A stretch of DNA of 49,977 bases, taken from positions 1 through 49,977 of IMG/VR virus record IMGVR_UViG_3300047554_000625; one strand, written 5' to 3'. The notes beneath the pieces are model-generated. The model had not been told where the DNA came from, did no database searches, and saw only the letters and a list, made by a program, of their open reading frames with translations. Below are positions 8,594-43,764 of this stretch, in pieces. Origin of the DNA: a virus. The position numbers and the translations under genes are program-made. Each line of letters begins with the position of its first letter. Within the stretch, counting starts at the first letter, position 1.

Positions 8594-9232
8594 CTATTTA
8601 TCGGTGGTAGGGTGTAGTTTGTTACGAATAACTATCCACGTTACAGCTTGTAGAGTTGATACTTCTAAGCCAAGTAGGTTAGCCACTACAGAGTAGTCAG
8701 ACCAGACGCTTATGTATTGTTTTCTTGACAGGCTAGGAGTTTTCATTTCAACTAATCCTAACCCGTGTTTCCATACTCGGTAAGCGTGTCTGTCTATCGT
8801 AGCATACTCAGTTTCACCGTAAATGTTGTGTGCGAATGACCACGTTTTGTGACCACTACCTAACTCAGATACTTCTGCTTCAAACCAAGCAAAAGCTTTA
8901 GTTGGGTCATTGATAAAGTCTAACGCTTTTTGGGCATTAAATTTATAGGTAGTGTACATATTGTCTTCTATAGATACTGAGTCAGTAGTGTAGTCTTCTA
9001 AAAACTTCTCACAGTACTTGACATTGTTTTCCCAAGAAGTAGCGGGGCTTAACACACTCATGATAATACATACAAGCTTGAATGACTTGTTGTAAGTATC
9101 TGCCAATTCTTGACAGACATCATGAGCAGTAGTATACCAGTCTTTACCTTGTCTTAGTTCTAGTTTAGAAGCTTCTAGGTATACTGATACAATGTGTTTT
9201 TGGTTAAGAGAAAGTTTAGTTAGGTCTAACAT
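8594..9232 (-). CDS. phage protein with HhH-GPD glycosylase-like motifs
   Basis: 212 residues. Motifs in order are VLSPATSWENNVKYCEKFL, then GSGHKTWSFAHNIYG, then ATIDRHAYRVW. The G-hydrophobic-G-K-T pattern followed by a V/I-D-R/T-H segment is reminiscent of helix-hairpin-helix DNA glycosylases (G.G.KTA...VDTH). It also resembles a phage-wide family of unknown function. A DNA-binding or base-recognition role is possible but unproven. AAGGT seven bases before ATG supports the start. Confidence 0.7.
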   Translation of the reverse strand: MLDLTKLSLNQKHIVSVYLEASKLELRQGKDWYTTAHDVCQELADTYNKSFKLVCIIMSVLSPATSWENNVKYCEKFLEDYTTDSVSIEDNMYTTYKFNAQKALDFINDPTKAFAWFEAEVSELGSGHKTWSFAHNIYGETEYATIDRHAYRVWKHGLGLVEMKTPSLSRKQYISVWSDYSVVANLLGLEVSTLQAVTWIVIRNKLHPTTDK

Positions 9233-17598: not shown

Positions 17599-18456
17599 AT
17601 GTCTTTCCATTCTAATATGATGATGCGCAGAACAAGCTCAGGAGGAGGTAGTTCAAACCTCACTCTAGACGACTTAACAGCCTCGCCTATACTAGCTATA
17701 TCAACGAGGAAGCTAGACAAGGACTACACTGGCTACTGTATGCGCGTCCGCAGGTCAAACGACAATGCTGAACAGGACATAGGCTTTACTTCTGGCGGAG
17801 ACTTAGACACGTCCAGTTTAACTTCATTTTGTGGTAGTAACAGTGGCTACGTTACAACTTGGTATGACCAGTCAGGTAACACAAGGAACTTGACTATGAC
17901 CACTACTGCTAATCAACCACGAATAGTAAACGCTGGCACAGTGGAAACAAGCGGTGACGTGGGAGGTAAGGCTGGTATAGCGTTTAGTACAGGTAGTTAC
18001 TGGATGTCCCTGTCTTACACAATAAGCTTAACCACGCTTACCGTGGCTATGGTAGTAGACCTTGACGCTTCAGGTTCGAGGATATTTGACCATTACACTG
18101 GCGCAAATGACTACACGTCAGGAAACTTAAGCCTGTACAACTCAAGCAACAAATTCGCCTGTTATAGTGGTGCTGCTCGGGCTATATCCACAAACACAGT
18201 AACTGGTTCAGCCAAGAGTATAGTTTTTAGGCGTGACGGGGCAAACTCAGTCGTGTACGACAACAACTCTGCTGGTACTACAGACACGTCTTGGGGAACA
18301 ACAACTTTGACTGGCGAAACACTTAGACTTGGTAATGCAACTTCAACAGCTTGGCTTGGTCACTACTACGAGTTTATTTACTTTGGCTCGGCTATAAGCT
18401 CAACAGACAGAACCACTATCTACGATGACGTTGTATCCTACTTTGGTATTAACTAA
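17599..18456 (+). CDS. arabinofuranosidase B/LamG-like carbohydrate-binding virion protein (285 aa)
   Basis: The motif chain STRKLDKDYTGYCMRVRRS, DNAEQDIGF, YVTTWYDQSGNTRNL and PRIVNAG is characteristic of a concanavalin/LamG-like domain that phages share with alpha-L-arabinofuranosidase B. It usually serves as a sugar-binding module on tail fibres. Whether it hydrolyses anything is unknown. A Gly/Ser linker precedes the domain. The stop overlaps the terminase ATG. Confidence 0.75.
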   Translation: MSFHSNMMMRRTSSGGGSSNLTLDDLTASPILAISTRKLDKDYTGYCMRVRRSNDNAEQDIGFTSGGDLDTSSLTSFCGSNSGYVTTWYDQSGNTRNLTMTTTANQPRIVNAGTVETSGDVGGKAGIAFSTGSYWMSLSYTISLTTLTVAMVVDLDASGSRIFDHYTGANDYTSGNLSLYNSSNKFACYSGAARAISTNTVTGSAKSIVFRRDGANSVVYDNNSAGTTDTSWGTTTLTGETLRLGNATSTAWLGHYYEFIYFGSAISSTDRTTIYDDVVSYFGIN

Positions 18457-29164: not shown

Positions 29165-29378
29165 CATGATATTGTGTTGGTTATTCTTTACTGGTATTAA
29201 GGAGGTTCAGGATGGGGGCGGCATTACCTGTGATTGGTCTGGCTATATCGGGGATTGGAACAGTGGCTGGCATAGCTGGTCAAGCAGGGAGTGGCGGAGG
29301 GACAATATACACTGCCGACTCGAAAGCGAAGTACCAAGCAGACCTAGAAGCACTGAAATTAGCGGAGTACAACGCTAA
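29154..29378 (+). CDS. possible overlapping small membrane peptide (up to 74 aa)
   Basis: ATG 29154 has a very good ribosome site (GGAGG nine bases upstream) and encodes a hydrophobic start (MVFSMILCWLFFTGI), then runs 167 bases out of frame into the next gene. It may be a genuine Rz1-like or leader peptide or simply an open frame. No lipobox is seen. Confidence 0.3.
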   Translation: MVFSMILCWLFFTGIKEVQDGGGITCDWSGYIGDWNSGWHSWSSREWRRDNIHCRLESEVPSRPRSTEISGVQR

Positions 29379-30915
29379 GCAACGGGAGTCGTTAATTGCC
29401 CAAGAAAGACTGGCTGCTCAGGACTTTGCTAAGTTTCAACACGAACAGATGCTTATGCAACTGAATAGTGAAACTGAGTTAGCCACCCTAGGACTTCAAC
29501 AACAGTGGGAGGCAATTAACTACGCGAGAAACATCGACAAGCAAGTCGGGCAAATGGAGAAGTTCATGTCTAACGCCTCGCTTGAGTCAGCAAGACAGGG
29601 TGTAGAAACCCAGTATGAACAGACTAAGCGGCAACTTGGCTTAGACCAGTTTGACCGACAGTCTCAGCTTGGCTTCAAAGACAGAGGACGTGACTTGCAG
29701 GGTGCTGGCTTGTCTGCTCAAGAAGCTGGATTAGCTTTGGAAGAAAACAAACTAGGTACAAAGAAAGCCCAGTTAGACCAACAGGGTGCAGAGGCTCGAC
29801 AACAGATAGGCAACCAAGAACTAGACCTAGGCTTAAAAGAACAGGAGTTTGCTCAGGGTCAGTTCCAAGCAGAACAAGGTCTACAGAGTCAAGAAAGCCA
29901 AGCAAGTACAAGTAAGAACCTAGCCTTGGCTCAGGCAGACGAAGCTAAGAGACAAGCCCTTAACGAAATGTTACGGGTATTCTCTGGTAACGAACGAGAC
30001 TTTGCCAAGTATCAGGCTATGCTAACTGCTAACGGAGTTAACCTTGGTGGTAACGTTCAGTTTGACCAAAACATGAACCAAGAAATACAGGGTCAGATGC
30101 AGGGTATCCAGAACCAAGCCAGCATGAGTAAAACCTCTGCGGGCATTCAGCAAGGGTACACCCAGTCTCAGATAGGTCAACAACGGTCTGGCTTAGCTGC
30201 TCAGGCTAACTTGGCTAATCAAGGTTTCAGTCAAGCAAGACAACAGTTTGGTCAAGCTAGGCAGAACATTGATGTAAACCAAGCTTTGGCTAACCAGCAA
30301 CTTAGTCAAGCCCAACGTGGTATTGACTTGTCTAAGAGTGGTCTTCTACTAGACAGGCACAGGTTGGACTTAGACAGAGAATACGATGTGTTCTCTATGT
30401 CGATACTTCCTGACCTCCGTATGCAACAGGCACTAGAACAAGCCAAGACCCAGAAGGTTCAGAGTTTGTTTGGTATTAACTCACAACAAGTGGGCGAAGA
30501 CTTTGCCCGTACAACACAAGATACAGTAGAGGACAGACAATATGAGCTTGACAGGACTGGTTATGAAGAAGGTCTTAAAGCTGTGCCTAAGAACTATGAC
30601 TACCAAAGGAAGGCGGCTGATAGTTCGTACCTTTCGGCTCTTGGCTCATCGTCAACTCAAGCGGAAGCCGCACTCGCTATGTTGGCAGCTAATCAACATG
30701 GTCTGTTGTCTGGTCTTGGACAAGGTCTAGCCAACGGTACACAAACTGGGTACAGACCTTCATCTAACACTGCTGCGGGCATAGCTAATGCTTTGGGCAG
30801 CATCGGCGGGTTTATGGGGCAGCTACAGGGATACCTTGGCGCACGTAACATGAACTCGTCTACTGGAGGTTCTTCTCAGTTTATGGGTATGGACTCTGGG
30901 CATAGTTGGAAATAG
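29212..30915 (+). CDS. internal virion protein, T7 gp14-like
   Basis: 567 residues. AGGAGG before ATG 29212. A Gly/Ala hydrophobic N-terminus (LPVIGLAISGIGTVAGIAGQ) resembles membrane-inserting ejection protein starts; long Gln/Ala/Leu-rich coiled coils follow (SAQEAGLALEENKLGTKKAQ). T7 gp14 forms the outer-membrane pore of the ejected tunnel. It is about three times longer than T7 gp14, so the match is by layout and position. Confidence 0.65.
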   Translation: MGAALPVIGLAISGIGTVAGIAGQAGSGGGTIYTADSKAKYQADLEALKLAEYNAKQRESLIAQERLAAQDFAKFQHEQMLMQLNSETELATLGLQQQWEAINYARNIDKQVGQMEKFMSNASLESARQGVETQYEQTKRQLGLDQFDRQSQLGFKDRGRDLQGAGLSAQEAGLALEENKLGTKKAQLDQQGAEARQQIGNQELDLGLKEQEFAQGQFQAEQGLQSQESQASTSKNLALAQADEAKRQALNEMLRVFSGNERDFAKYQAMLTANGVNLGGNVQFDQNMNQEIQGQMQGIQNQASMSKTSAGIQQGYTQSQIGQQRSGLAAQANLANQGFSQARQQFGQARQNIDVNQALANQQLSQAQRGIDLSKSGLLLDRHRLDLDREYDVFSMSILPDLRMQQALEQAKTQKVQSLFGINSQQVGEDFARTTQDTVEDRQYELDRTGYEEGLKAVPKNYDYQRKAADSSYLSALGSSSTQAEAALAMLAANQHGLLSGLGQGLANGTQTGYRPSSNTAAGIANALGSIGGFMGQLQGYLGARNMNSSTGGSSQFMGMDSGHSWK

Positions 30916-30924
30916 AGGTAACAA

Positions 30925-33900
30925 ATGGTAAGACGCGCTGGAACAAATTCACCCAGTGGTTTAACGGGGAGCAACGTAGGAGTTGACCTCCCCGATTATG
31001 CTAACGAGAACTGGGAACAGGTTATACAGAACACTCAGGCTGGGTTTGGTCATGCTGCACAGGCTCTAGATGCACAAGCCCAAGTGTTTAACCAAGAATA
31101 CCAAAGAAAGGTACAAGAGTGGAAAACCAAAGAAGAACAACGCCTAGCCGAGTCTCAGTCGGGCGGTGGTGGTATTGGTGAGATAGGTCAAGCCTTGGCT
31201 GGTATTGGTAAACAGCTTCTTGCTGGGTACACTCTACAAGAGGAAATTAAGTTTAAAAATACCCAACAAGCAAAAGAGAACGACTGGCGTGAACGGTCTG
31301 TCCGCCTAAACGAGAAAGAGTTTGACTTCCGCCAAAACGAGGTAGCAAGACAAGAACAAGCAAGACAAGCAAAGGCTGAACAGGACTACCTTACCCAGAT
31401 ATGGGAAGCCAAGTTAACTGAAACACAGTCTCAGATTAACGAGTATATTGGTCAGTACGGTAGAGCCAACGGTGTTCAAGCTGCCAAGCAGAAGTACAAT
31501 GAGTTCTTGGGTTCTCCCGAATATCAAGCTTTACCTGAAGCAGTTAAGTTCGACATAGCCCTAAAAGCCAATAAACAACTTGAAGAGTTAACTGGTGAGT
31601 CTGCTGACAAAATCTATGAGGAGCAGACCAAGATAAAAGAGGAGGCTGCAAACACAGGTGTTCAGCAGTTTAAGCTAGAATACTCTGCTGGTCTACAGAG
31701 ACTTAGAACAGGTACTGACTTAACTGCTGACGAGGCTATTGAGTTAAGCCAAGAACTACTTTACGGTGGTCAAACCTTAGTTCAGAACAGTCCTCAGCTA
31801 CAAGCATCGTTGTCTGACCCACGGGTACGGTTACAGTACCAAGCCGCTATTGTCAAAGAAGTTGGCGACTCGCTTAACTCGTATTACGGAACTACTGGGC
31901 AGCAGGGTGCAGAAGCACAAAACTTCATTTTGGCAGCAAATGAACTCCGAGCATTAGAGGCTTTCAGAGACTCTGGGGAAATTAACGATGCTCAGTACCA
32001 AGCCAAAGCTAAGGAAGTTCTACTTAGTCGTGGTATTCAAACTGACCCAGACAAGATGCCCAATGCTGGTGTCCAGATAATGGATGCCAAAATCAAAAAC
32101 CTAGAACAACGAAACCAGTACACAGAACTGCTTCAACGTGACCGTAACCTCGAAACTATCCTAGGTGAGAAAACACCACAGGGTCAAGCCTTGGTTAGAC
32201 GTAACATAGGGACTTCCCTGTACAACAACATCAACGGGCGCAATGTCGAGGTTCGTATTGCTGAGTTACGCAACCTAGAAAGAAACAACCCCAACGTTGC
32301 TCAGGCTGTTCATGCCCCAGCAGAACGTGAAATGTTAGAGGGGTATCACAAAGACCGAACTCGCCTAGCTGAGTTAAACCAGAGTACAGCCTCGTTAGAA
32401 GCAGAAATTCACAAGCTCGGTTACGCAGTTAATCCTCCAAAAGCCAAAGAGTACACTGTTGACCCTAATACCCCGTTAGGAATGGGTCAGGGTGTTGCTG
32501 CTCAACCAGAGGTTATACTGATACCTGCGCCAAACAGAGTACCAGAAGCCCCTATAGAAGCATTGGAAGCTAAGCGGGAGCAGTTAGCCGCATTGTACCA
32601 AGAACGTGACATAGTAATGTACCGTTGGAAACAGTACGGTGTTAACCTTGCTAACCCCAGTGACCAGTCGTACTTGAAACAGCTAGAAGCAGACACACAA
32701 GCTTCTGCTGACGAAATAGCCAGACGAAGTGCCGCAGAGGGTATCGGTGGTAACTTAGACCCGTCAATGATGAAAAAGAACGAGCCAACACGTTCTGACG
32801 TTGACAGAGTCCGCATTGACCAAGGTGTTATTGGCGACTTGCAACGGTCAGGTAAAACCGCCGTGTACCTACCACAAAACACGGGTAATAAAGAGCTTGA
32901 CGAACAAATCAAGTCTGAGTACGGTAACTCCCTGAAAAACGTTGTACAGTTGACACTGGCTGGTCAGTACAAAGAAGCTGAGGCGTTTATTAAGTACCAT
33001 GTTAGTGAGGTTGACAAGAAACTTTCCCCGTCAGCCAAAGGTACAAAGGAAAGTATATCGTTAAGAAACAACTTAACTCTTCAAAAACAAGAGTTACAAC
33101 GTGTGTACGAGTACACAAAAGAGAAACAACAGTGGTATAGGCAGAAGTTTGAAGGACAGTCAAGACCTGCGGAGCGTCCAGTCTCAAATTTTTCTAAGGG
33201 TAGTGCCACACCTCCCCAAAGGGTACTACCCGAAAACGAGGCTATGTACAGACCCGCTATGCCTATGTCTGGGAACTTAGCGACTTCTCCTCAACTTGGG
33301 TACGTTCCGTTTAAGGGTGGTAACGTCAGAGTAACATCACAGTACGAAGAAAAGCGTGGAGACAAGGTTCACCGAGGTTTAGACCTTGTTAGTGATGACC
33401 CACGCGTAGCCACTGTTCAAGGCGGAACTGTGGTATTTGCTGGTGAGTGGAGTACCTACGGTAACGTAGTCATGGTAAAAACACAGGACGGGCATACCGA
33501 GGTTTACGCCCACCTAGATAAGTTAGGAGTACGAAAAGGTGACACACTGACACCAGCCCAACAAGTCGGCATTATGGGTAATACTGGTAGAAGTAAAGGG
33601 GCGCATTTACACTTTGAAGTGTGGACAGCCGACTTTAAAGACCACCCATCAGAGGTGAAAGAACGTGGGTACGTTAGTCCTGTGGACTACCTACAACGGT
33701 TTCAGGGTAAAGCTACGATGCCTGTAGGTGGTGGTGTACGTAACAGTACGAAACAACAAGTAAGTTACACTGGCGCAGTTAAGATGTCGGAAAACCTAGT
33801 TTACTCTAACGGGTACATCATCGACAGAAATACTATGCAGATGAGAAAAGCCACTCCGCGTGATGACTTACTTATCCAGAACGGTGTTCCGCTTGCTGAC

Positions 33901-34989
33901 AGACGTAACGTGCCTCAGACAGCTACGTACCTAAACTCACCTGCTGGTAAGTCTGTTACCTACTACGAGCCGCCAGCAGAGGCTGCTACTAAGCAGCACT
34001 ACGTGTTTGTTCGTCCTGCTGGGTACAAGGACAAGAACGGTAAAGACGTGTTTTATCTTGAGGGGTACGACAAAGGTAGACGTGTGTTCAGTAAACCAGT
34101 GACAGACGGGAAGATTCCTGATGGTAGTTACAAGGTAAACTCTACTGGCTCATCAGTTACTGGTAACGTTAGTTTCTACGATGAACGTGACAAAAACCTA
34201 GTCTCCCAGTTTATTAAGAGACGTAACGGGACGGATATGTACGTCAGTACAATACCCAAACAAAAGTACGTCCAGTCTGGTATTAACGACTACACAGGCA
34301 AACCTATGAGTTCCAACGCCCTGTCCATTTACAAGGAAGACTACGCCCCGTCTAACCCAGATGACGACTACGGAGTAAAAGAACTTAGAGATGACGCTCG
34401 ACTCAGGCAGTCGTACCACAATGCTGCCAAGAAACTTGGTGTTCCAACTGTGTGGCTAGTTGACCAAACACTAGGTGAGTCAGGTCTAAATAAGGCGGTT
34501 GAGGGTGGTAGAAACAACGACTACATCGGTCTTATTCAGATGGGTGATGCCGCCCTGCATGACGTTGGGATGTACCTAGAAGGTAGACCGTACACCAAAG
34601 AGGACGTGCGCAACCACGACATCTATTGGCAAATTGAGGTTCTAATACCTGCCTACTTTGAAGTTCAACTTAAGCAAGCCAAGGCGCAAGGTAACAACAG
34701 AGGAATACAGACCTACGAGGATATGCTTATGCTTGTCTGGGGTGGTGCTGGTGGGTACAACCGAAGCTTGAAGAGTCGTGAAACCATGAACGACTATCAT
34801 GGTGGTGGTGGTGTTAACTGGCAACAGTACAGAGAGAACGTGGTAACGGGTGGACGTAAGTTAGGTAGACGTTACGCTTGGTCACACAAGCAGAGTGTTA
34901 CTTTACACGCCGCCCCTAGGGACAATTGCCCAGTATGCCAAGGGATGAACAGGAGCGGGAGCTTTACTAGCCACTATTACTATGGTTAG
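30925..34989 (+). CDS. ejection protein with M23 peptidase and transglycosylase-like domains
   Basis: 1,354 residues. A Gln/Glu-rich coiled-coil N-terminal half (to ~750). A LytM/M23 metallopeptidase domain: VHRGLDL (H816), YAHLDKL (~862), GAHLHFEV (H894, H896), all expected zinc and catalytic residues. A possible lytic-transglycosylase-like domain follows: LGESGLNKAV (E~1185), then YIGLIQMGD. The C-terminus has a CPVC motif (1335-1338). It probably opens the cell wall during DNA ejection, the role of T7 gp16, but with two cutting activities. Confidence 0.8.
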   Translation: MVRRAGTNSPSGLTGSNVGVDLPDYANENWEQVIQNTQAGFGHAAQALDAQAQVFNQEYQRKVQEWKTKEEQRLAESQSGGGGIGEIGQALAGIGKQLLAGYTLQEEIKFKNTQQAKENDWRERSVRLNEKEFDFRQNEVARQEQARQAKAEQDYLTQIWEAKLTETQSQINEYIGQYGRANGVQAAKQKYNEFLGSPEYQALPEAVKFDIALKANKQLEELTGESADKIYEEQTKIKEEAANTGVQQFKLEYSAGLQRLRTGTDLTADEAIELSQELLYGGQTLVQNSPQLQASLSDPRVRLQYQAAIVKEVGDSLNSYYGTTGQQGAEAQNFILAANELRALEAFRDSGEINDAQYQAKAKEVLLSRGIQTDPDKMPNAGVQIMDAKIKNLEQRNQYTELLQRDRNLETILGEKTPQGQALVRRNIGTSLYNNINGRNVEVRIAELRNLERNNPNVAQAVHAPAEREMLEGYHKDRTRLAELNQSTASLEAEIHKLGYAVNPPKAKEYTVDPNTPLGMGQGVAAQPEVILIPAPNRVPEAPIEALEAKREQLAALYQERDIVMYRWKQYGVNLANPSDQSYLKQLEADTQASADEIARRSAAEGIGGNLDPSMMKKNEPTRSDVDRVRIDQGVIGDLQRSGKTAVYLPQNTGNKELDEQIKSEYGNSLKNVVQLTLAGQYKEAEAFIKYHVSEVDKKLSPSAKGTKESISLRNNLTLQKQELQRVYEYTKEKQQWYRQKFEGQSRPAERPVSNFSKGSATPPQRVLPENEAMYRPAMPMSGNLATSPQLGYVPFKGGNVRVTSQYEEKRGDKVHRGLDLVSDDPRVATVQGGTVVFAGEWSTYGNVVMVKTQDGHTEVYAHLDKLGVRKGDTLTPAQQVGIMGNTGRSKGAHLHFEVWTADFKDHPSEVKERGYVSPVDYLQRFQGKATMPVGGGVRNSTKQQVSYTGAVKMSENLVYSNGYIIDRNTMQMRKATPRDDLLIQNGVPLADRRNVPQTATYLNSPAGKSVTYYEPPAEAATKQHYVFVRPAGYKDKNGKDVFYLEGYDKGRRVFSKPVTDGKIPDGSYKVNSTGSSVTGNVSFYDERDKNLVSQFIKRRNGTDMYVSTIPKQKYVQSGINDYTGKPMSSNALSIYKEDYAPSNPDDDYGVKELRDDARLRQSYHNAAKKLGVPTVWLVDQTLGESGLNKAVEGGRNNDYIGLIQMGDAALHDVGMYLEGRPYTKEDVRNHDIYWQIEVLIPAYFEVQLKQAKAQGNNRGIQTYEDMLMLVWGGAGGYNRSLKSRETMNDYHGGGGVNWQQYRENVVTGGRKLGRRYAWSHKQSVTLHAAPRDNCPVCQGMNRSGSFTSHYYYG

Positions 34990-34991
34990 AA

Positions 34992-37900
34992 ATGTCTGAT
35001 ATTTTAAATCCCAAGGACGAACAAGAAGCAGCAGAAGGTAGACAAGTCAGACCGATTAAGTCATCCTCTGCTGATTCTCAATCTCAGCCTAGTTCTTCTA
35101 GTGCTGCCCCAGTTGAACAACCAGTTACACCAACGCCTCCACCCGCTCCACAACAAGCCCCAGTAGGTGAAGACTTGTTCGGGGGTATTCGACCAGTTCA
35201 CCCGTCACAGTTTTTAGAAGCCCAGTCTGGTAACATTGGGGCTTTAACTGACCCAACAGAGTCCACTAGAATGGACGTGGAAAACTTCCTCGGAGGATTA
35301 ACGCCAGAACGTGTTGCCCAGAAGTTATCCGCCCAGTCACTATATAGTCAACCTGACTTAACAGGTAATCCAGACCAGACTTGGGAAAGAGTTAACAGTA
35401 CCTACGAGGCAGCCAAGAAAGAGTATGACAGGTTTGTTAAAGAACCTGTGTTTGGTATGCCAAGCCAAAACTACACTGTGTTACCTGATGGTAGTGTAAT
35501 ACCTAAAACTCCTGCAACTGACACTGGTATTGCCTCACGAGGGTTAAACTCGGAGTTAGGTAAACACCTTCAAGACAACGTAGACCCAGAAGGTAAGTAC
35601 AACACCCAGAGAACCATTACTCAGTTCCTGTTTGAGGACGCTTGGAATTTACTGGAGAAGGGCGCACACGGTGTAGCTACTTGGACAGGACTGAACAGAC
35701 TAGAAAGAACTTTAGGTATTAAAACCCAAGCAGAACAGGATGTAAGACGAGAAAGAATTAACCAAGAGTTTCAACAGACACTGGCTAAGCTAAGTGACAA
35801 AAACCAAGGGTTTAACCTAGCAAGCAGTGACTCAACTGAGAGTATAGGTGACTACGGTAACGCTGGTATGGTGTCAGCCCTTATATACGGTCTTAACACA
35901 ATACCATCGGCTGTTGTAGGTGGTGTGTATGACGTAGCAGATGAAATCATTCGTTACCGTACAGGTAAAGACCCATACGAGGGGAGTCGTGCGGCAGACG
36001 CTATTATCAAAGCCCGTGACTGGGGTTTGTCTAACAGATGGTCTGAACAGAACTACTTGTCCTTACAAGAACCAGAAGACCTAGAAGTCGGTACTATGAC
36101 TGGTAATTGGTATTGGGATGCACCAGAACATCTAAGCAAAGCCACGGGTGGTGTTATTTCGCCAAAATACGCCCACTGGATAATTCAGATGCCACTGGCA
36201 ATTGCTGGTGAAGTTGTGGGGGATGGTATAGTGGACACAGCCCTGCTCCGTGCCAACAGCGTGATAGGTAAGGCTGACTTAGCTTCTAAGATGGATGGGT
36301 ACATTCCACCGACTAAGACCAACTTGTCTGGTAACTCTATGCGCCAAGAGTTAGTAGAACAGGCTACGGAGTCTAACGGAGTTGTAGTAAAAGCTGTTGA
36401 TGGGCAACAACCCCAGTTAATAGTACCACCAGCAAAGGACGACATAACCACAGAGGTAGTTCACGTTGAGCCAAAAAATCGTAGGCTACAGTTCGTAACA
36501 GAGGACGAGTACAACCGATACGCTTTAGAAAGACAGAACACAGAGATAGTGCCTGTTGAAGGTAATCGGTCTGTTATGGTAGTTAACCTTGACGGAGGAC
36601 AGTCTCAGGCTATTCAAGTCAGACCAGTACCTAGACTACCCAGACTAGACGATGTTGTAGCAAAACCCCATGATGTAGTACCTTACGTAAACCAAGCAGA
36701 GGTTATAGTTAGACCTCAACCAGAGGCACTACCATCGTCCGTGGTTAGTCTACACCCACGAAACAACGCCCAACTAACTGAGGTGGCTCTTAACTCTGCT
36801 GACCCGTCTACTGGTAAAGGCTTACTTAGTCCCACATTTGGTGGTGTATTAACTGACAACGAGATACGGGCTTTACGTTCGTCTAACCCCGTGGCACTGG
36901 CTCGTTATGGTACAGACGTTAACCCAATGTTAATGAATGCCAATACCCTAGCATTACCTGACGGGTCTGTGTTGGATATACCTAATGTACGAGTACCCGC
37001 AGAGTACATGGATGATGTAAACCCAGTATTACTTGGTCAGTCTCCTAGTGACACCTTGCTTGACAACTACATGAACATTCAAGCAGAGGCAGCTAGGAAG
37101 CGTTTTAAGCTTGTTCAGGATATGAATGAAGGAAGACTGTCTCCGTCTACTGCCAAGCGAATACTGACCGATATTCAGACGCTAGAGGCACAAGGTAAAG
37201 TCGTGCTTGCACAGGCTGTTGACCGTGGTGAAGGTTATAAACTGTTATCACCAGCATTACCTGACGAACTGTTGTCCAGCACAGACGAGGCGGCGGAGGT
37301 AGGTAATCAAATAGCCCAGTCGGTATTAATACTTGAAGACCAAGCAACCACCTTAGTTACACTGAGAACACAGGTTGATAACCTTGCTGACTTGACTCGT
37401 AAGCTAGACGGTCACATAGACAGCCTAGGCAGAGTTGGCAGACAGGACATATCAATAAGTGAGTTCACTGGTGACTGGTCTACAGACGGTGGTAAACTAA
37501 GTTTGGCTAACGGGGTAGATGGCGGGGCTTTACAACCGTTCGACCCAGACCTGCCTACTGACACGATGTACGACCATTTTGACGATGTGTACGAACCAGA
37601 AAAGATGTTCGGGGACACACCCGATGGTTACGTGTACGACCCAGATACAGACGGATTTCTTGGTGTTTCTGTAGACCTAGAAACTGGGGAGTCAGTCGTA
37701 CACAGGATTGATGCTGGTCGCAAGCCTATAGATGCTGACTGGGAGAGACGTGTAGACGCTACTGGTAAAGAGTACTATGTGTCTACTGACGACAGTAGTG
37801 AGCTTGGGGAGGACTTTAACTTTGACGATATTCTCAGTGATGAGAACACCATCAACATAGGAGCGGAGGAGGGTGTAATAGACCCAAACGGGGCTGTCGA

Positions 37901-40421
37901 TGTTGAGACTAGAGAAGTTCCGCCAGAGGCTTTAGCCGAGGCAGACGAGGTGGTAGAGGAGTCAGTATTTGCTAGACGGGGGCAGGGAGGTAAAACTGTT
38001 GCCGATATGTGGGCAGAGGCTGAGAAGGAAGCAGAAACACTAACCGAAGAAGTAACAGAGGAAGTACCAAGCATACTGTCGTCCGAGGTAATGGATGAAG
38101 CAGTAAAACAGTCTAGTGAAGCTGGTGGCAACACTGAGTTTGGTTTACCTGACCAGTCACTAAACCATAACCGTGGTATTAAAAAGGGTGACATATTCCT
38201 AGGTGAAGAGAACGGCGACCCAGTGGTGTTAATGAAAGACGGTACAGTCAAGTACGTAAAGACTAACATGATGGGTCAGTCAAACTACGCGGCGTTTATT
38301 CCCAAGTCACCAAGACACAGAAAATGGTTGGGTATAGCTGAGCAGTATAAACTGAGTCAAGAAGCTGCGGAAAACGTCACAGATACTGTGCAGCAGGTTG
38401 CCAAGCAGGTAGACGAGTCACCTATGCTGGGTGCTGACATCGAAGTTAAACCCACCGAGTCGGTACAAAATACCACTGAAAGTGTCATAGATACAAACTT
38501 CGACTCATCCGTGAAGCCTGATGACTTTAGACGCTACATAGTCAACTTTGCCGCCGACATAGCCCGTAAAGAGGGAGTAACCAACCTAGATGGGTTCTTT
38601 GATGGGTTGTACAAGTCTGGGGCTTCTGGTATTGACGATGTAGAGGCGTACATACAAGCCAACGCCCCAATAAAATTAGAAGGTAAGTTTGGCTTTAGTG
38701 ACGTTGCCTCTGACATTCGTGACTACCTAGACAACGGTAAGTCTAGAGCCAATTCTAGTTTTGATTGGGATGGGTACAGTAAAGGCGGCTTACCTGAGTT
38801 AACCACAGAGGTACAACAAGCAACAACACCCAAGAAGGTAGTAGACCCAAGGCGGAAGCTTGCCCCACTGTCGCCAGACCAAGGTAAAACTATATTCCAA
38901 CGTATTTCCTCAGATTTCAGAAAATTGGGTGTAGAGTTCAAGCCTATGCCTGACGATATGAAAGCCAAGTATAAAGGTAACGTACCCAAAGCTTTGTTCA
39001 ACAAGGCGGATAACGTTGTGTATTTTGATTTCCAAGGGTTAGCAAAGGCTAGACCAGAGGAGTTAGTGTACCACATGAGACACGAGAGTGTTCACGCTAT
39101 GCAGAACATGGGCGGAATGAAGGCTTTAGGTATAGACATACCAGACGAGTTCCGTAACTTCGTGGATAGTATTTACAAGGGGAAAGTTCCTGATGACCAC
39201 TTACCTCTAGAATACGAGGCTTTCTACTTACAGGAGAATCCAGAGCTTTACGAACAAGTCCTAAAAAACAAGATGCAGGGTGTTCAAGCCAAGCCAGACG
39301 TACTGGTAGACGAGAAAGCTTTGGCGGCACATAGGGAGATGATGCGCAAAGCGGCTGAGGCACACAAGAAATTCAAGCCTAGTGCTGACCCAGCACAAGC
39401 TAAGCCAATAGGCAAAGTTACGCCAACCAAGACAAAACCTGTAGCCAAGGTTGAAGCTGAGTGGTTTCACGGTACACGTACATCCAAGAAACTACCTGAT
39501 GTTGACCCCGTGGTAGGTGGTGCTTCAGCAGAGTTTGGTAAAGGGGTGTACTTAACCCAAGAACCAAAGTTAGCCGAAGCCGCCGCACGTAAGGTACAGG
39601 CAGTTAACAAGCCCAGTGTTGCTGATGCCACATTCTCAGCAGAGAACAGTAGGGTTGTCCGTGTGGATGTTAGACAGTACAACGAAGGTAACATACTAGA
39701 CCTGTCTACTGTTATGACCAAGAAGACCTCAGCTAACCCACGTGGAGTTGCTGGCTTCATGAACAACACGTTTGTTGAGGCAGCCAAAGCCGCTACAGAC
39801 GATGGTTCATTTGCTTCCTTCTATGGATTCCGTATTGGTGGTAAACAGGTTGCAACAGGCTGGGATGAGTTCCGCACCGCCTATGCCGCATTTAACGGTG
39901 GCAAAGCTCCGTCAGAAATTATCGTGGCTAAATTCCAAGCCAAGGTAAACGAGTTAATGCGCCAAAAAGGTATAACTGCGGGTACATTCACAGGTAAGGA
40001 CGGAAGTAAGACACTGGTTATCTATGACCCACGTAAGCTTGTCGAGGTAGACGAAATACCAATAAAGACTACTGGTGACTTCATGGAGGGACTTGAGAAC
40101 CAACGTTTCTTAGACCAGAGAACCTATGACCAGATGCCTGACGATGTTACCCTGTCCAACCTTAAACAGAGTCAGAAGGCTCAGGCTGACTGGGCTTTGC
40201 AACAGAACGCTGAGGCACTGGCTGACGAGCAGTTAAGGACTGTTGACGAGGTCGATGCGTACTTCGATGCGCGTAGGGAGTTACAGACACAAGTTGTCGA
40301 AACTAAGAGACGCGTAATCAAAAACTTAGAGGACAGTCTACCTGATGTGGAAGCTCAGAAGGCGGCTAAACAGAGAGCGGCTCGATATGTAAACCGTAAC
40401 ATAGAGATTAACCCCTGTTAA
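34992..40421 (+). CDS. giant virion protein with zincin and ADP-ribosyltransferase-like domains
   Basis: 1,809 residues. A disordered Ser/Pro/Gln N-terminus, long helical and acidic middle, then two enzyme-like domains. First, a metalloprotease-type segment: YHMRHESVHAMQ (HExxH at 1363-1367) with a downstream acidic LEYEAFYLQENPE that could give the third ligand. Second, an ART-like segment: AEWFHGTRTSK (H near 1493), FGKGVYLTQEP (Y near 1519) and VIYDPRKLVEVDEI near 1690, compatible with an H-Y-E triad. It lies between two ejection-type proteins, so it is probably packaged and injected. Domain calls are by eye. Confidence 0.72.
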   Translation: MSDILNPKDEQEAAEGRQVRPIKSSSADSQSQPSSSSAAPVEQPVTPTPPPAPQQAPVGEDLFGGIRPVHPSQFLEAQSGNIGALTDPTESTRMDVENFLGGLTPERVAQKLSAQSLYSQPDLTGNPDQTWERVNSTYEAAKKEYDRFVKEPVFGMPSQNYTVLPDGSVIPKTPATDTGIASRGLNSELGKHLQDNVDPEGKYNTQRTITQFLFEDAWNLLEKGAHGVATWTGLNRLERTLGIKTQAEQDVRRERINQEFQQTLAKLSDKNQGFNLASSDSTESIGDYGNAGMVSALIYGLNTIPSAVVGGVYDVADEIIRYRTGKDPYEGSRAADAIIKARDWGLSNRWSEQNYLSLQEPEDLEVGTMTGNWYWDAPEHLSKATGGVISPKYAHWIIQMPLAIAGEVVGDGIVDTALLRANSVIGKADLASKMDGYIPPTKTNLSGNSMRQELVEQATESNGVVVKAVDGQQPQLIVPPAKDDITTEVVHVEPKNRRLQFVTEDEYNRYALERQNTEIVPVEGNRSVMVVNLDGGQSQAIQVRPVPRLPRLDDVVAKPHDVVPYVNQAEVIVRPQPEALPSSVVSLHPRNNAQLTEVALNSADPSTGKGLLSPTFGGVLTDNEIRALRSSNPVALARYGTDVNPMLMNANTLALPDGSVLDIPNVRVPAEYMDDVNPVLLGQSPSDTLLDNYMNIQAEAARKRFKLVQDMNEGRLSPSTAKRILTDIQTLEAQGKVVLAQAVDRGEGYKLLSPALPDELLSSTDEAAEVGNQIAQSVLILEDQATTLVTLRTQVDNLADLTRKLDGHIDSLGRVGRQDISISEFTGDWSTDGGKLSLANGVDGGALQPFDPDLPTDTMYDHFDDVYEPEKMFGDTPDGYVYDPDTDGFLGVSVDLETGESVVHRIDAGRKPIDADWERRVDATGKEYYVSTDDSSELGEDFNFDDILSDENTINIGAEEGVIDPNGAVDVETREVPPEALAEADEVVEESVFARRGQGGKTVADMWAEAEKEAETLTEEVTEEVPSILSSEVMDEAVKQSSEAGGNTEFGLPDQSLNHNRGIKKGDIFLGEENGDPVVLMKDGTVKYVKTNMMGQSNYAAFIPKSPRHRKWLGIAEQYKLSQEAAENVTDTVQQVAKQVDESPMLGADIEVKPTESVQNTTESVIDTNFDSSVKPDDFRRYIVNFAADIARKEGVTNLDGFFDGLYKSGASGIDDVEAYIQANAPIKLEGKFGFSDVASDIRDYLDNGKSRANSSFDWDGYSKGGLPELTTEVQQATTPKKVVDPRRKLAPLSPDQGKTIFQRISSDFRKLGVEFKPMPDDMKAKYKGNVPKALFNKADNVVYFDFQGLAKARPEELVYHMRHESVHAMQNMGGMKALGIDIPDEFRNFVDSIYKGKVPDDHLPLEYEAFYLQENPELYEQVLKNKMQGVQAKPDVLVDEKALAAHREMMRKAAEAHKKFKPSADPAQAKPIGKVTPTKTKPVAKVEAEWFHGTRTSKKLPDVDPVVGGASAEFGKGVYLTQEPKLAEAAARKVQAVNKPSVADATFSAENSRVVRVDVRQYNEGNILDLSTVMTKKTSANPRGVAGFMNNTFVEAAKAATDDGSFASFYGFRIGGKQVATGWDEFRTAYAAFNGGKAPSEIIVAKFQAKVNELMRQKGITAGTFTGKDGSKTLVIYDPRKLVEVDEIPIKTTGDFMEGLENQRFLDQRTYDQMPDDVTLSNLKQSQKAQADWALQQNAEALADEQLRTVDEVDAYFDARRELQTQVVETKRRVIKNLEDSLPDVEAQKAAKQRAARYVNRNIEINPC

Positions 40422-40422
40422 G

Positions 40423-43400
40423 ATGACTAACAAACTAGGCTGTAGACTGCCCAGATACACAGACGCTAGGTTCGATATGGGGAAGGTTGACCCAAACGCC
40501 GACCCCACTATTATCAAGCGTATTAACGACTTCCAGAAAATGTGGATGAAGCTTACCCGTACTGCCCCGACTAGCCCAGTCGCTAAGTCAATGAGTGATG
40601 CCTCCGCAGTTTACTGGGAGCGTGTTCACCGTATAGGCAAGATAGTCGAGGCTCGTGCTTACGACCAGAACTACTTCGCCAAAATGATAACACGAACCGA
40701 GAACAGTCTTAGAGAGTTCTTTGGTAAGATGACCGACCTCGCACCCAATACTGAGAAGTACGAACGGTTCATGCAGAGACGGGCGGAGGGGTTTGTTACT
40801 GAGCAGTTGGCTACGCTTGAGTCAGCAAAGGCTATTGACGCAGCTTACAAACAACTTGACGGCGTATTTAAGGAGTACGGTATTGGCGAACAGATGCAAG
40901 CCACGCTAACTTGGAAGTCTGTCGAGGTGGGTAGTGAACCTTGGCTAATTGACTACACAATACAGACTAACCCGCAAGCTGTACGGATGTTAGAAAGAAA
41001 TAGAGATGAGTTTATTAATTTGATGGACAGCCTAGGTATTGATAAAGCTGACCAAGTAAAGATAATTGAGGCAGGTAAAACAGTAACACAAACCTATTAC
41101 GAGGTATTGTCTGTGTCTAGTCAGATAGGAGCAGACACATCAAAGCTTCAAGGTATAGGTTACATGAACCGCGTGTTCTCTAGAGAGGCTGGTAACGTTG
41201 TAGACACCATAGACAACATGGGTGTACGTGTTCGTCAAAAGTACACTGGTGATATTACCTCCGCGTTCTTTCAAAAGTCAAGGGAGTTCGCTGACTTTGT
41301 TCCGCAAGACGAAGCAGTTATGGACTACCTTTTCACTAGAGGTAAAGTGTACGACAGACTAAACAAAGAGTTAGCAAAAAATCCTGAGTTAGCTGCAAAG
41401 ATAGGCAAAACAAACGTCACCCAGTTTTCTGATATGTTGGTAAACGGTGGTGAACCTGTCTTACTTGAGGCAGTAATAAACACACTAGACGAGGATGAAC
41501 TACGCTTTCTTGTTCAGAACGGTTTTCTTAGTAAAATACCTTGGGAAACTGGGAGAGTCTACGAGTACCTCAACGATGTTTACAAATTCCCGTTTGAAGG
41601 TATCAACGAGGTATTTATTAGTGACCCACGTAAAGCTTTCCAACTTTATAAGAACACGTTAGTTAACCTAGCCAGTGAGAGAGGAAGTGTATTCGGCTTG
41701 ATAGACGGGGCAATTAACGAGTTTGGTATTCCCAAGTCCATGTTAGACCCAGTTAAACACAAGGGCTTTGTTAGGCTGAGAGACGCGTTTACTGATGATG
41801 TTTTACAGAACGTTATAGGTAAGTCTAAGGAAGCTATGACCCACATGGACAACGTGTACATTCACCCCGATGTAGCCCGTGTGTTCCGAGCAGACATGGA
41901 AATTGCCACGTCACCTTACTGGTTAGGCATCTTCTCAGACCTATTCAATGCTACCAAGAAGTGGGCATCTGGTTTAGTGTTGGGTTCTTCCCAGTGGTTT
42001 GGTAGACAAGTTGTAGGTAATGCTGGACACCTGATGAGTTACGGGGTATCACCCTTTGGGTATGTTAACGATGTAGGTAGATTTATACAGGGGAGTATAG
42101 AACGCGTACTTAAAGGCGAGTCCCAGTTTGATATGTGGAAGTACCTACCAGACAAGAAGGTATTTGCTGGTGGGACAATGTCAGAGAAGGACTTGTGGAG
42201 ACTGGGTCAGCAACGGGGTTTACTTAACGACTTCACAGCCTTCGGCAAACGTACAGAAATAACTGGCTCGCGTGGTTTACGTGGTATGCGAAGAAGCATG
42301 AACGAGTTTCTTTGGGTGTTAAAAACATACCCAGAACACTTCGGGCGTAATGCCGCAGACCGCGCAGTACAGTACATGAGTGACAACGATAACCTGTTGT
42401 TTAGGTTTATTGGGTGGGGAAACGCCTCGACTGACAACGCTATGAGGTACAATATGCTTAAGGCTGTGATGTCTGATAACAGACTATTCCATAGACTTGG
42501 CATGGGTGGTATTGATACAGTACCCTACATAAAAGACCCTACCGAGGCAATTAAGTGGGTAGAGAAACACGTCTATATGTTTGACGAAATACCAGTGGAC
42601 AAAGACCTGCTTAACGTAGCCAACTCAGTTGTACCGTTCATGAATTGGCGTATCAAAAATATGCAACAGACTGTACGGTTTATGACTGAGCGTCCTCACT
42701 TGTTTGGCACTTACCTTGAACTAGCCAAAGAACCGTATGACGAGTTTAAGCATGACGACCCGTTGGCTTGGAAGGCTATGACTAACGGTTGGGTAAAAGA
42801 GTCTGACTTCCCAGTACCTTGGGTAATACCTAGTTCTAAGTCTGCTTCTGGTAACGATGAGGTGTTCACCTTCCCCCTGTCTAACATCAACCCAGAGTTG
42901 GGGGGTGTGTCTGAGGTAGCAAACTGGTTGGATATTCTTGGCTTGTTCACTGGTGAACGTGACCCACATGAGAGACGCGGAAACCCCTATGCCAAAAACG
43001 AGAACTTAGTACTACGTACAATTAATGAGGAGTCGTCACCACTTGCCTCCATAGCCACGTCACTACTTACAGGTAAGGACAAGTTTGGTAATGACCTAGC
43101 CAACCTACAGAGGGGAGTAAAACACAGAACCATGTTCGGCGTGGAAGTTGACCCAACGCTGTATTACTTTGCTACCACTGTCGCCCCGATGATACGTAAT
43201 GCTGAGAAGACTTACTCTGCTGTTACTGGTGGGGCTGGTCTTGGTGGCGCGCCAGACCTAGACGTTACCACTGGTGACTTTAGACCTTACGAGGAGACAT
43301 GGACTGGGGCTAGAACAGACCGAATGACACCCAAGCAAGAACCTGACTGGCTACCGTACAGACTTGCCCCAATAGAACGTCTTGGTGATATACTCGGGTT

Positions 43401-43764
43401 CTCCCCTATTCACGTTAACCACTTAGTTCAGATGGGATATACCCAGTCTGACATTGAGATGCAACTACGTGAAGCCAAGAAGAGACTTAACTCGTTCAAG
43501 TACAAGTTGGCTATTGAGACTGACCCAGAGGCGCAACAGAAGCATATTGAGGAGTACGAGGACTTGCTTATGTGGGCTATGCTCATTGAGTCTGAGTGGA
43601 AAATCTACGAACAGTGGAGAAAAGAACTAGGTATTCCATCCAGCAGAGCCTTACAGATAATTAAGGAGCAGGATATGAAGGTTGATGAGATGCTCCCTGA
43701 CGGGGAACAGCAAAGGATATACAGAGAAATTTACAAAAAATATAACACGGAGTTCTTACGATGA
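40423..43764 (+). CDS. large internal virion / ejection protein (1,113 aa)
   Basis: Mostly helical, starting one base after the preceding gene's stop. Segments such as WFGRQVVGNAGHLMSYGVSP and VVPFMNWRIKNMQQTVRFM look like membrane-interacting parts of large phage ejection or polyvalent-type proteins. I saw no polymerase, nuclease or peptidase motif. It corresponds by place to the last ejection protein before the tail fibre. The stop overlaps the fibre's ATG (ATGA). Confidence 0.65.
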   Translation: MTNKLGCRLPRYTDARFDMGKVDPNADPTIIKRINDFQKMWMKLTRTAPTSPVAKSMSDASAVYWERVHRIGKIVEARAYDQNYFAKMITRTENSLREFFGKMTDLAPNTEKYERFMQRRAEGFVTEQLATLESAKAIDAAYKQLDGVFKEYGIGEQMQATLTWKSVEVGSEPWLIDYTIQTNPQAVRMLERNRDEFINLMDSLGIDKADQVKIIEAGKTVTQTYYEVLSVSSQIGADTSKLQGIGYMNRVFSREAGNVVDTIDNMGVRVRQKYTGDITSAFFQKSREFADFVPQDEAVMDYLFTRGKVYDRLNKELAKNPELAAKIGKTNVTQFSDMLVNGGEPVLLEAVINTLDEDELRFLVQNGFLSKIPWETGRVYEYLNDVYKFPFEGINEVFISDPRKAFQLYKNTLVNLASERGSVFGLIDGAINEFGIPKSMLDPVKHKGFVRLRDAFTDDVLQNVIGKSKEAMTHMDNVYIHPDVARVFRADMEIATSPYWLGIFSDLFNATKKWASGLVLGSSQWFGRQVVGNAGHLMSYGVSPFGYVNDVGRFIQGSIERVLKGESQFDMWKYLPDKKVFAGGTMSEKDLWRLGQQRGLLNDFTAFGKRTEITGSRGLRGMRRSMNEFLWVLKTYPEHFGRNAADRAVQYMSDNDNLLFRFIGWGNASTDNAMRYNMLKAVMSDNRLFHRLGMGGIDTVPYIKDPTEAIKWVEKHVYMFDEIPVDKDLLNVANSVVPFMNWRIKNMQQTVRFMTERPHLFGTYLELAKEPYDEFKHDDPLAWKAMTNGWVKESDFPVPWVIPSSKSASGNDEVFTFPLSNINPELGGVSEVANWLDILGLFTGERDPHERRGNPYAKNENLVLRTINEESSPLASIATSLLTGKDKFGNDLANLQRGVKHRTMFGVEVDPTLYYFATTVAPMIRNAEKTYSAVTGGAGLGGAPDLDVTTGDFRPYEETWTGARTDRMTPKQEPDWLPYRLAPIERLGDILGFSPIHVNHLVQMGYTQSDIEMQLREAKKRLNSFKYKLAIETDPEAQQKHIEEYEDLLMWAMLIESEWKIYEQWRKELGIPSSRALQIIKEQDMKVDEMLPDGEQQRIYREIYKKYNTEFLR

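Follow-up and report, generated by a model that had tools for sequence, protein, structure and literature searches.

The pre-ejectosome of cyanopodophage A4 is reportedly the subject of a 2025 study by Hou et al. in PNAS. In PDB entry 9k3a, titled "Cyanophage A4 pre-ejectosome with C1 symmetry," chain B (1717 aa) is the giant protein of phage A-4L (A4L_27, gp27), and chain A is encoded by the gene that follows it. The A-4L protein at the position of the M23 peptidase gene is the "Internal protein" of entry 9k2v, present there in 10 chains. A second related theme is that of the polyvalent proteins, whose ADP-ribosyltransferases (ARTs) have the residues H-Y-D according to passages in Iyer et al. 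(2017; PMC5512222). Our literature search found no paper on an ART in Saffermanviridae-type phages, and the string "ribosyl" does not occur in the text of PMC10140849. The public annotation of the giant protein of phage Pbo-yong3 reads "mono-ADP-ribosyltransferase-like."

Gene neighborhood of the giant protein

In this work, we analyzed positions 1 to 49,977 of the viral contig IMGVR_UViG_3300047554_000625 (hereafter the window, 49,977 nucleotides). The original prediction, made from the letters of the DNA, had assigned a giant protein with a zincin-type protease and an ART-like domain to a podovirus. This ORF is real, running intact from an ATG to a stop codon, and the motif coordinates were correct to within one residue: HESVH lies at aa 1364-1368, HGTRT at 1493, GVYLT at 1518, and SKTLVIYDPRKL starts at 1672. 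The predicted spacing of about 130 residues between HExxH and HGT is likewise borne out (129 residues).

The portal protein of the window matched 23 phage records with 20-39% identity, of which 21 are cyanophages by name or host; these include Pf-WMP3, A-4L, and TR020, and the annotated records are mostly Saffermanviridae. The gene order agrees with this family (portal, scaffold, capsid, tail tubes, small internal protein, M23 protein, giant, and a protein of approximately 1100 aa), and the giant occupies the slot of the Saffermanviridae giants between the genes of the M23 internal protein and the next core protein (Table 1). The podovirus is therefore a Saffermanviridae-like cyanopodovirus, and homology establishes both the family and the gene slot. 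The giant had also been placed between two wall-cutting ejection proteins, which is correct for the upstream gene with its M23 peptidase domain but not for the downstream gene, for which no match to a wall hydrolase was found. With the whole giant as the query, Pfam, PHROGs, phages, IMG/VR, and PDB gave nothing useful beyond a weak DUF3990 match.

Among the relatives found, the closest is an IMG/VR contig of 9.7 kb, whose portal shares 70% identity with that of the window; a search of this contig for the ART-like domain found none. A portal-like gene was also found in the record of Microcystis phage MaAM05 (MW495066; 273,876 bases) amid many cellular-type genes (metG, ftsH, proS, lepA, and glgX), and this record possibly represents a bacterial contig that harbors a provirus. 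Elsewhere in the window, a terminase-adjacent protein (17599-18456) matches the arabinofuranosidase-B catalytic domain at aa 35-106 (PF09206, 1.1e-9), and a DUF7178 protein (5.8e-40) is encoded at 8594-9232.

Table 1. Positions in the window of the giant gene, its predicted domains and motifs, and the neighboring core-protein genes.
Feature	Position	Strand	Evidence
Internal (gp14-position) protein, no cysteine	29212..30915	+	Position; A-4L equivalent is "Internal virion protein" of 9k2v, 10 chains
Upstream ejection protein, M23 peptidase domain, CxxC at aa 1335-1338 near C-terminus	30925..34989	+	Pfam PF01551, 1.9e-22
Giant ejectosome-type protein P0001, 1809 aa	34992..40421	+	Synteny with Saffermanviridae giants; A-4L homolog is PDB 9k3a chain B
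Proposed variable (cassette) interval, approximately aa 816-1488, holding the zincin-like domain and preceding the ART-like domain	37437..39455	+	Cassette site seen in near-identical relatives
Predicted zincin-like domain, aa 1292-1440; HESVH at 1364-1368; candidate third ligand E1407 or E1409	38865..39311	+	AF2 single-sequence model; Foldseek and VIA-align lists led by zincins
HESVH motif codons	39081..39095	+	
Predicted ART-like domain, aa 1489-1684 (H1493, Y1520; K1673-T1674 at third catalytic position)	39456..40043	+	HMM match, Foldseek/BFVD, VIA-align
Cys1809, sole cysteine and last residue of the giant	40416..40418	+	Single Cys, among the last 6 residues, in 20/20 giants
Downstream protein P0004, sole cysteine at aa 7	40423..43764	+	Homolog of 9k3a chain A

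The ART-like domain and its active-site residues

Searches with the whole protein were nearly blank, and the ART-like domain could be detected only through positional equivalents, against which blastp matched aa 1490-1765 of the giant. A seven-row profile then found the domain in all 20 giants (the window and 19 same-slot relatives), a count that takes in the rows used to build the profile and several near-identical phages. Since several of these giants are nearly identical, counts over the 20 are not independent and represent about 12 lineages. A profile built without the window row scored the window at 49.7 bits (E 9.9e-17), and the other held-out rows were recovered at 4.2e-24 (L013), 7.3e-49 (L019), 1.7e-13 (L014), and 0.0012 (L016); the top score among 500 shuffled giants was 5.2 bits. 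The pattern HG[ST]...Y[LIVF][TS] arose by chance in 0.025% of 20,000 shuffles of the giant. As judged by homology, the ART-like domain is far beyond chance, and it appears common to the whole family, a point that the original prediction missed.

The fold assignment draws on several searches. Pfam ART-PolyVal matched four of eight family members (best 8e-5) and DUF3990 matched two members; the curated cut-off of ART-PolyVal (PF18760, 31.2 bits) was reached by no record, with the top relative at 23.7 bits and the window without a match. Neither the ART-like nor the zincin-like domain of the window matched Pfam above a curated cut-off, and a search of genome contigs for relatives of the ART-like domain found none. 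For the AF2 model of aa 1476-1700, which is of modest confidence (mean pLDDT 56), Foldseek against BFVD listed TR020 and PfWMP3_26, followed by a Yersinia phage domain of the ART-PolyVal-like kind (E 4.6e-5) and other ARTs of polyvalent proteins. The top VIA-align row was 9k3a chain B (Z 11.1), and others included tRNA 2'-phosphotransferases Tpt1 (Z 6.3 and 5.9) and many PARP/tankyrase entries around Z 4. Because the rows with Z 4-7 are mixed with unrelated hydrolases and helical proteins, we relied, with reserve, solely on the 9k3a row and on the recurring matches to the ART superfamily. Foldseek against PDB gave no match below E 0.001 for this model, and its leading rows were unrelated. Together, the structure searches and the Pfam ART-PolyVal matches among relatives support an ART-PolyVal-like fold for the modeled domain, in line with the ART-like domain first proposed.

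The active site is a different matter. In the AF2 model, H1493 lies in strand E14-20 and Y1520 in strand E44-47, which are strands 1 and 2, as in the ART-PolyVal/Tox-ART-HYD2 type. That type has an aspartate in strand 5, but the window has K1673-T1674 there, and the glutamate of the intact H-Y-E triad that had been proposed is absent. Most of the original observation holds, but its catalytic claim was over-stated, and the domain of the window may be inactive. Among the 20 giants, the histidine and the tyrosine are each kept in 19, the exceptions being L016, which lacks the histidine, and L014, which has histidine in place of tyrosine; these two loci form a natural series of active-site decay. 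In the alignment read by eye, the strand-5 position is threonine in 17 of 20 giants, glutamate in L013, and aspartate in L014. The residue before this threonine is aspartate in 11 giants and lysine or arginine in six, the window among them. The lysine/arginine state is seen in all five giants with a C-terminal R-S-E-like ART (L006, L021, L028, L029, and L030), and their relative yong1 (L011), which has no such ART, has aspartate. The change from aspartate to lysine or arginine was probably a single event, because those five giants form one group.

These residues bear on a serious alternative, namely that the ART-like domain has lost its enzymatic function and persists as a building block of the pre-ejectosome, with any enzymatic work done by the cassette upstream of it (a zincin here, an R-S-E-like ART elsewhere). 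The prevailing threonine at the third catalytic position, the loss of the neighboring acid in the window, the substitutions in L014 and L016, and the presence of the domain in every giant are all consistent with such a role, as is the basic residue found wherever a C-terminal R-S-E-like ART is present and replaced by aspartate in the close relative without one. However, the retention of the histidine and the tyrosine exceeds what a pure scaffold needs, and the giant of JY12 has the aspartate alongside an added ART. Moreover, some PARP-type mono-ARTs work without the glutamate. On balance, we regard a purely structural domain as somewhat improbable.

If the domain is active, it could act in the manner of T4 Alt, modifying the host RNA polymerase for the transcription of a phage that has no polymerase of its own. 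This role is attractive because the single-subunit RNA polymerase family PF00940 was found in none of 13 records, including the window (T7 control 9.9e-110), and the family phrog_832, which is matched by the ART-like domain, is named "RNA polymerase ADP-ribosylase." However, this name is a family label that may stem from members with an R-S-E-like ART, which the window does not have, and none of our results points to the target. We therefore consider RNA polymerase modification an unlikely reading.

The zincin-like domain and the proposed cassette site upstream of the ART-like domain

The single-sequence AF2 model of aa 1292-1440 is of modest confidence (mean pLDDT 61) and has an element order of one helix, three strands, the HExxH helix, and a later helix carrying E1407/E1409. 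The first histidine of HESVH is model residue 73, inside helix 64-81, and the two candidate ligands lie in helix 115-124, a low-confidence part of the model. Polyvalent zincins have the same element order in passages of Iyer et al. (2017; PMC5512222). In the Foldseek search against PDB, rows 1-10 were all minigluzincins of the selecase/jannalysin kind (best E 0.024, probability 0.93), with nothing below E 0.001, and VIA-align listed ArdC (Z 6.2), an SprT-type protease (Z 5.9), and others. The model and these ten rows favor the zincin-type domain of the original prediction, and a minigluzincin-like fold of this region is moderately supported at the level of models. Taken with the ART-like domain, the models and structure searches indicate that the giant holds several unrelated effector-type domains in one chain, as expected of a polyvalent protein.

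The motif could instead be a chance HExxH in a disordered linker. HExxH appeared in 1.6% of 20,000 shuffles of the giant, it is present only in the window among the 20 giants, and no sequence relatives of the region were found in phages, plasmids, IMG/VR, or genome contigs. However, a chance motif would not account well for a model with the element order of zincins and with minigluzincins in all ten leading PDB rows, and we consider this explanation quite unlikely. The zincin-like domain is a one-off at a variable site among the 20 giants, which the original prediction did not recognize.

The variability of this site is best seen in the giants of WMP3, LPP-2, JY12, and PP, which are mostly identical at 48-50 of 50 positions per block. 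At the position directly upstream of the ART-like domain, no insertion is present in WMP3 and LPP-2, and JY12 and PP have dissimilar insertions of approximately 210-230 residues. The insertion of JY12 is an R-S-E-like second ART: it matches the Pfam ART families PF01129 (2.3e-4) and PF03496 (3.1e-4), both slightly below cut-offs, and resembles the C-terminal ART of WMP4 (phmmer 6.6e-7), which is itself above the PF03496 cut-off (1.1e-9). The insertion of PP is a different domain. The stretches before the ART-like domain in PP and A-4L match no Pfam family; the ParB-like label of phrog_33290 was confirmed neither by Pfam for these two cassettes nor by PDB sequences for that of A-4L.

These comparisons identify the stretch upstream of the ART-like domain as an effector-cassette site in the relatives. 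In the window, the zincin-like domain adjoins the ART-like domain on its upstream side, which is the place corresponding to the insertions of the relatives. Upstream of the ART-like domain, blastp between the window and its relatives gave short weak pieces only. The left border of the cassette in the window was first set by eye at aa 815; a coiled-coil profile gave only 6.0 bits there, equaled or exceeded by 2 of 500 shuffles, which makes this border suggestive but not significant.

Probable ejectosome partners, cysteine pattern, and comparison with known systems

The profile of alignment A1, which has P0004 of the window as its first row, matches 9k3a chain A end to end with 1541.7 bits. Because the A-4L homolog of the giant is chain B of this entry and the product of the next gene is chain A, the giant is probably an ejected core protein, which agrees with the earlier proposal that it is packaged with ejection proteins. 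From the A-4L entries, we infer that the giant of the window is located in the virion and ejected, and by this analogy it probably enters the cell with the DNA. As a homolog of chain A, P0004 would be an ejectosome protein rather than a tail fiber. Existing labels of P0004 and its homologs are at odds with this homology, namely "tail fiber protein; host specificity" in PHROG and "DNA-directed RNA polymerase" in Pbo-yong3. The polymerase annotation was also checked with PF00940, which matched nothing in the 13 related records, a set that excludes Pbo-yong3. In LPP-1, LPP-2, Dor1, JingP1, and A-4L, the giant itself is annotated as "tail fiber protein" or "tail protein." That it is a tail fiber or another external tail protein is highly improbable: for the A-4L homolog, this is already contradicted by the pre-ejectosome entry, and the gene position is that of internal core proteins. 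These results suggest that the common labels "tail fiber" and "ParB-like partition nuclease" are misleading for these genes.

The cysteines of three adjacent core proteins follow a pattern, with sites at 34927-40443 of the window and in loci L002-L030. Each of the 20 giants has exactly one cysteine, at most six residues from its C-terminal end. All 19 loci that include the next protein encode a cysteine at its position 4-8, and in 18 of them this is its only cysteine (in two of the 19, the gene is truncated at the end of the locus). A CxxC motif close to the C-terminus of the M23 protein recurs in 19 of 20 loci, with two additional cysteines in CHP58, L013, and L019; in seven of these tails, the CxxC is followed by a conserved histidine. 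In A-4L, the cysteines are Cys1715 of A4L_27, Cys5 of A4L_26, and Cys1036/Cys1039 of A4L_28. The exception is TR020, where the M23 protein has no cysteine and the next protein has three. Other proteins of the window, such as gp12, have approximately 1% cysteine. The shortage as such is not special and is common in core proteins, given that T7 gp15 and gp16 have none; the novelty lies in the conserved positions. This pattern suggests, as a sequence-based hypothesis, a joint zinc or disulfide site across the giant, the next protein, and the M23 protein. More tentatively, the Saffermanviridae ejectosome could serve as a delivery frame in which the effector is exchangeable. In such a frame, the three adjacent proteins, which are otherwise nearly free of cysteine, would be held together by one zinc or disulfide site, to which the M23 protein contributes its CxxC...H tail, the giant its terminal cysteine, and the next protein its N-terminal cysteine, and the frame would bring the ART-like domain and a swappable enzyme (zincin, second ART, or other) into the cell. 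We consider this extended proposal possible, if on the doubtful side.

Overall, we favor with reasonable though limited confidence the reading that the giant is the large effector-carrying ejectosome protein of a podovirus, which combines a family-wide ART-fold domain with a minigluzincin-like metallopeptidase at the cassette site. It would be stored in the capsid core beside the wall-cutting M23 protein and the protein encoded by the following gene, to be ejected ahead of, or together with, the DNA. Most likely, the ART-like domain would then act on a target in the host during early infection. The zincin may cut the giant in the cell, thereby freeing the C-terminal domain, or attack a host protein. 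The folds and the cassette site of the relatives come from homology and computation (for the zincin, moderately so); catalysis, targets, and self-cleavage of the giant are what we infer.

This reading connects the polyvalent effectors, a group defined by computation, with a podovirus ejectosome for which a homolog is available as a cryo-EM entry, which makes effector delivery testable in the culturable phages A-4L and Pf-WMP3. The natural cassette swaps in the near-identical giants of WMP3, JY12, and PP provide a clean comparison of the role of each effector, and the three-protein cysteine pattern can be checked directly in 9k3a and 9k2v.

Among the known systems, A-4L gp27 occupies the same gene slot as the giant of the window, carries a homologous ART-like domain, likewise has its only cysteine close to the C-terminus, and is partnered by the protein of the following gene. 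However, it has no HExxH and a different, unassigned domain upstream of the ART-like domain, and outside the latter the sequence match is barely detectable. T7 gp16 is likewise large, is the final core protein ahead of another large gene, and is nearly free of cysteine (zero in gp16), but to our knowledge it has neither an ART nor a zincin. T4 Alt shares the idea of a virion-borne ART with early action; it differs in being an R-S-E ART, a domain absent from the window, where a phmmer search with the R-S-E-like ART of WMP4 gave a best domain of 0.6 bits at aa 996-1054. The minigluzincins (selecase and jannalysin) and the ArdC/SprT zincins are similar in predicted fold and in the HExxH helix, whereas no sequence similarity to them was found and the domain of the window is embedded in a giant phage protein. 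The polyvalent proteins, as presented in passages of Iyer et al. (2017; PMC5512222), also combine a zincin and an ART in one giant chain that is presumably injected, and they differ in that the third ART residue of the window is not their aspartate. The giant is a variation on the polyvalent-protein theme within a family of ejectosome proteins, a setting richer than the original prediction supposed.
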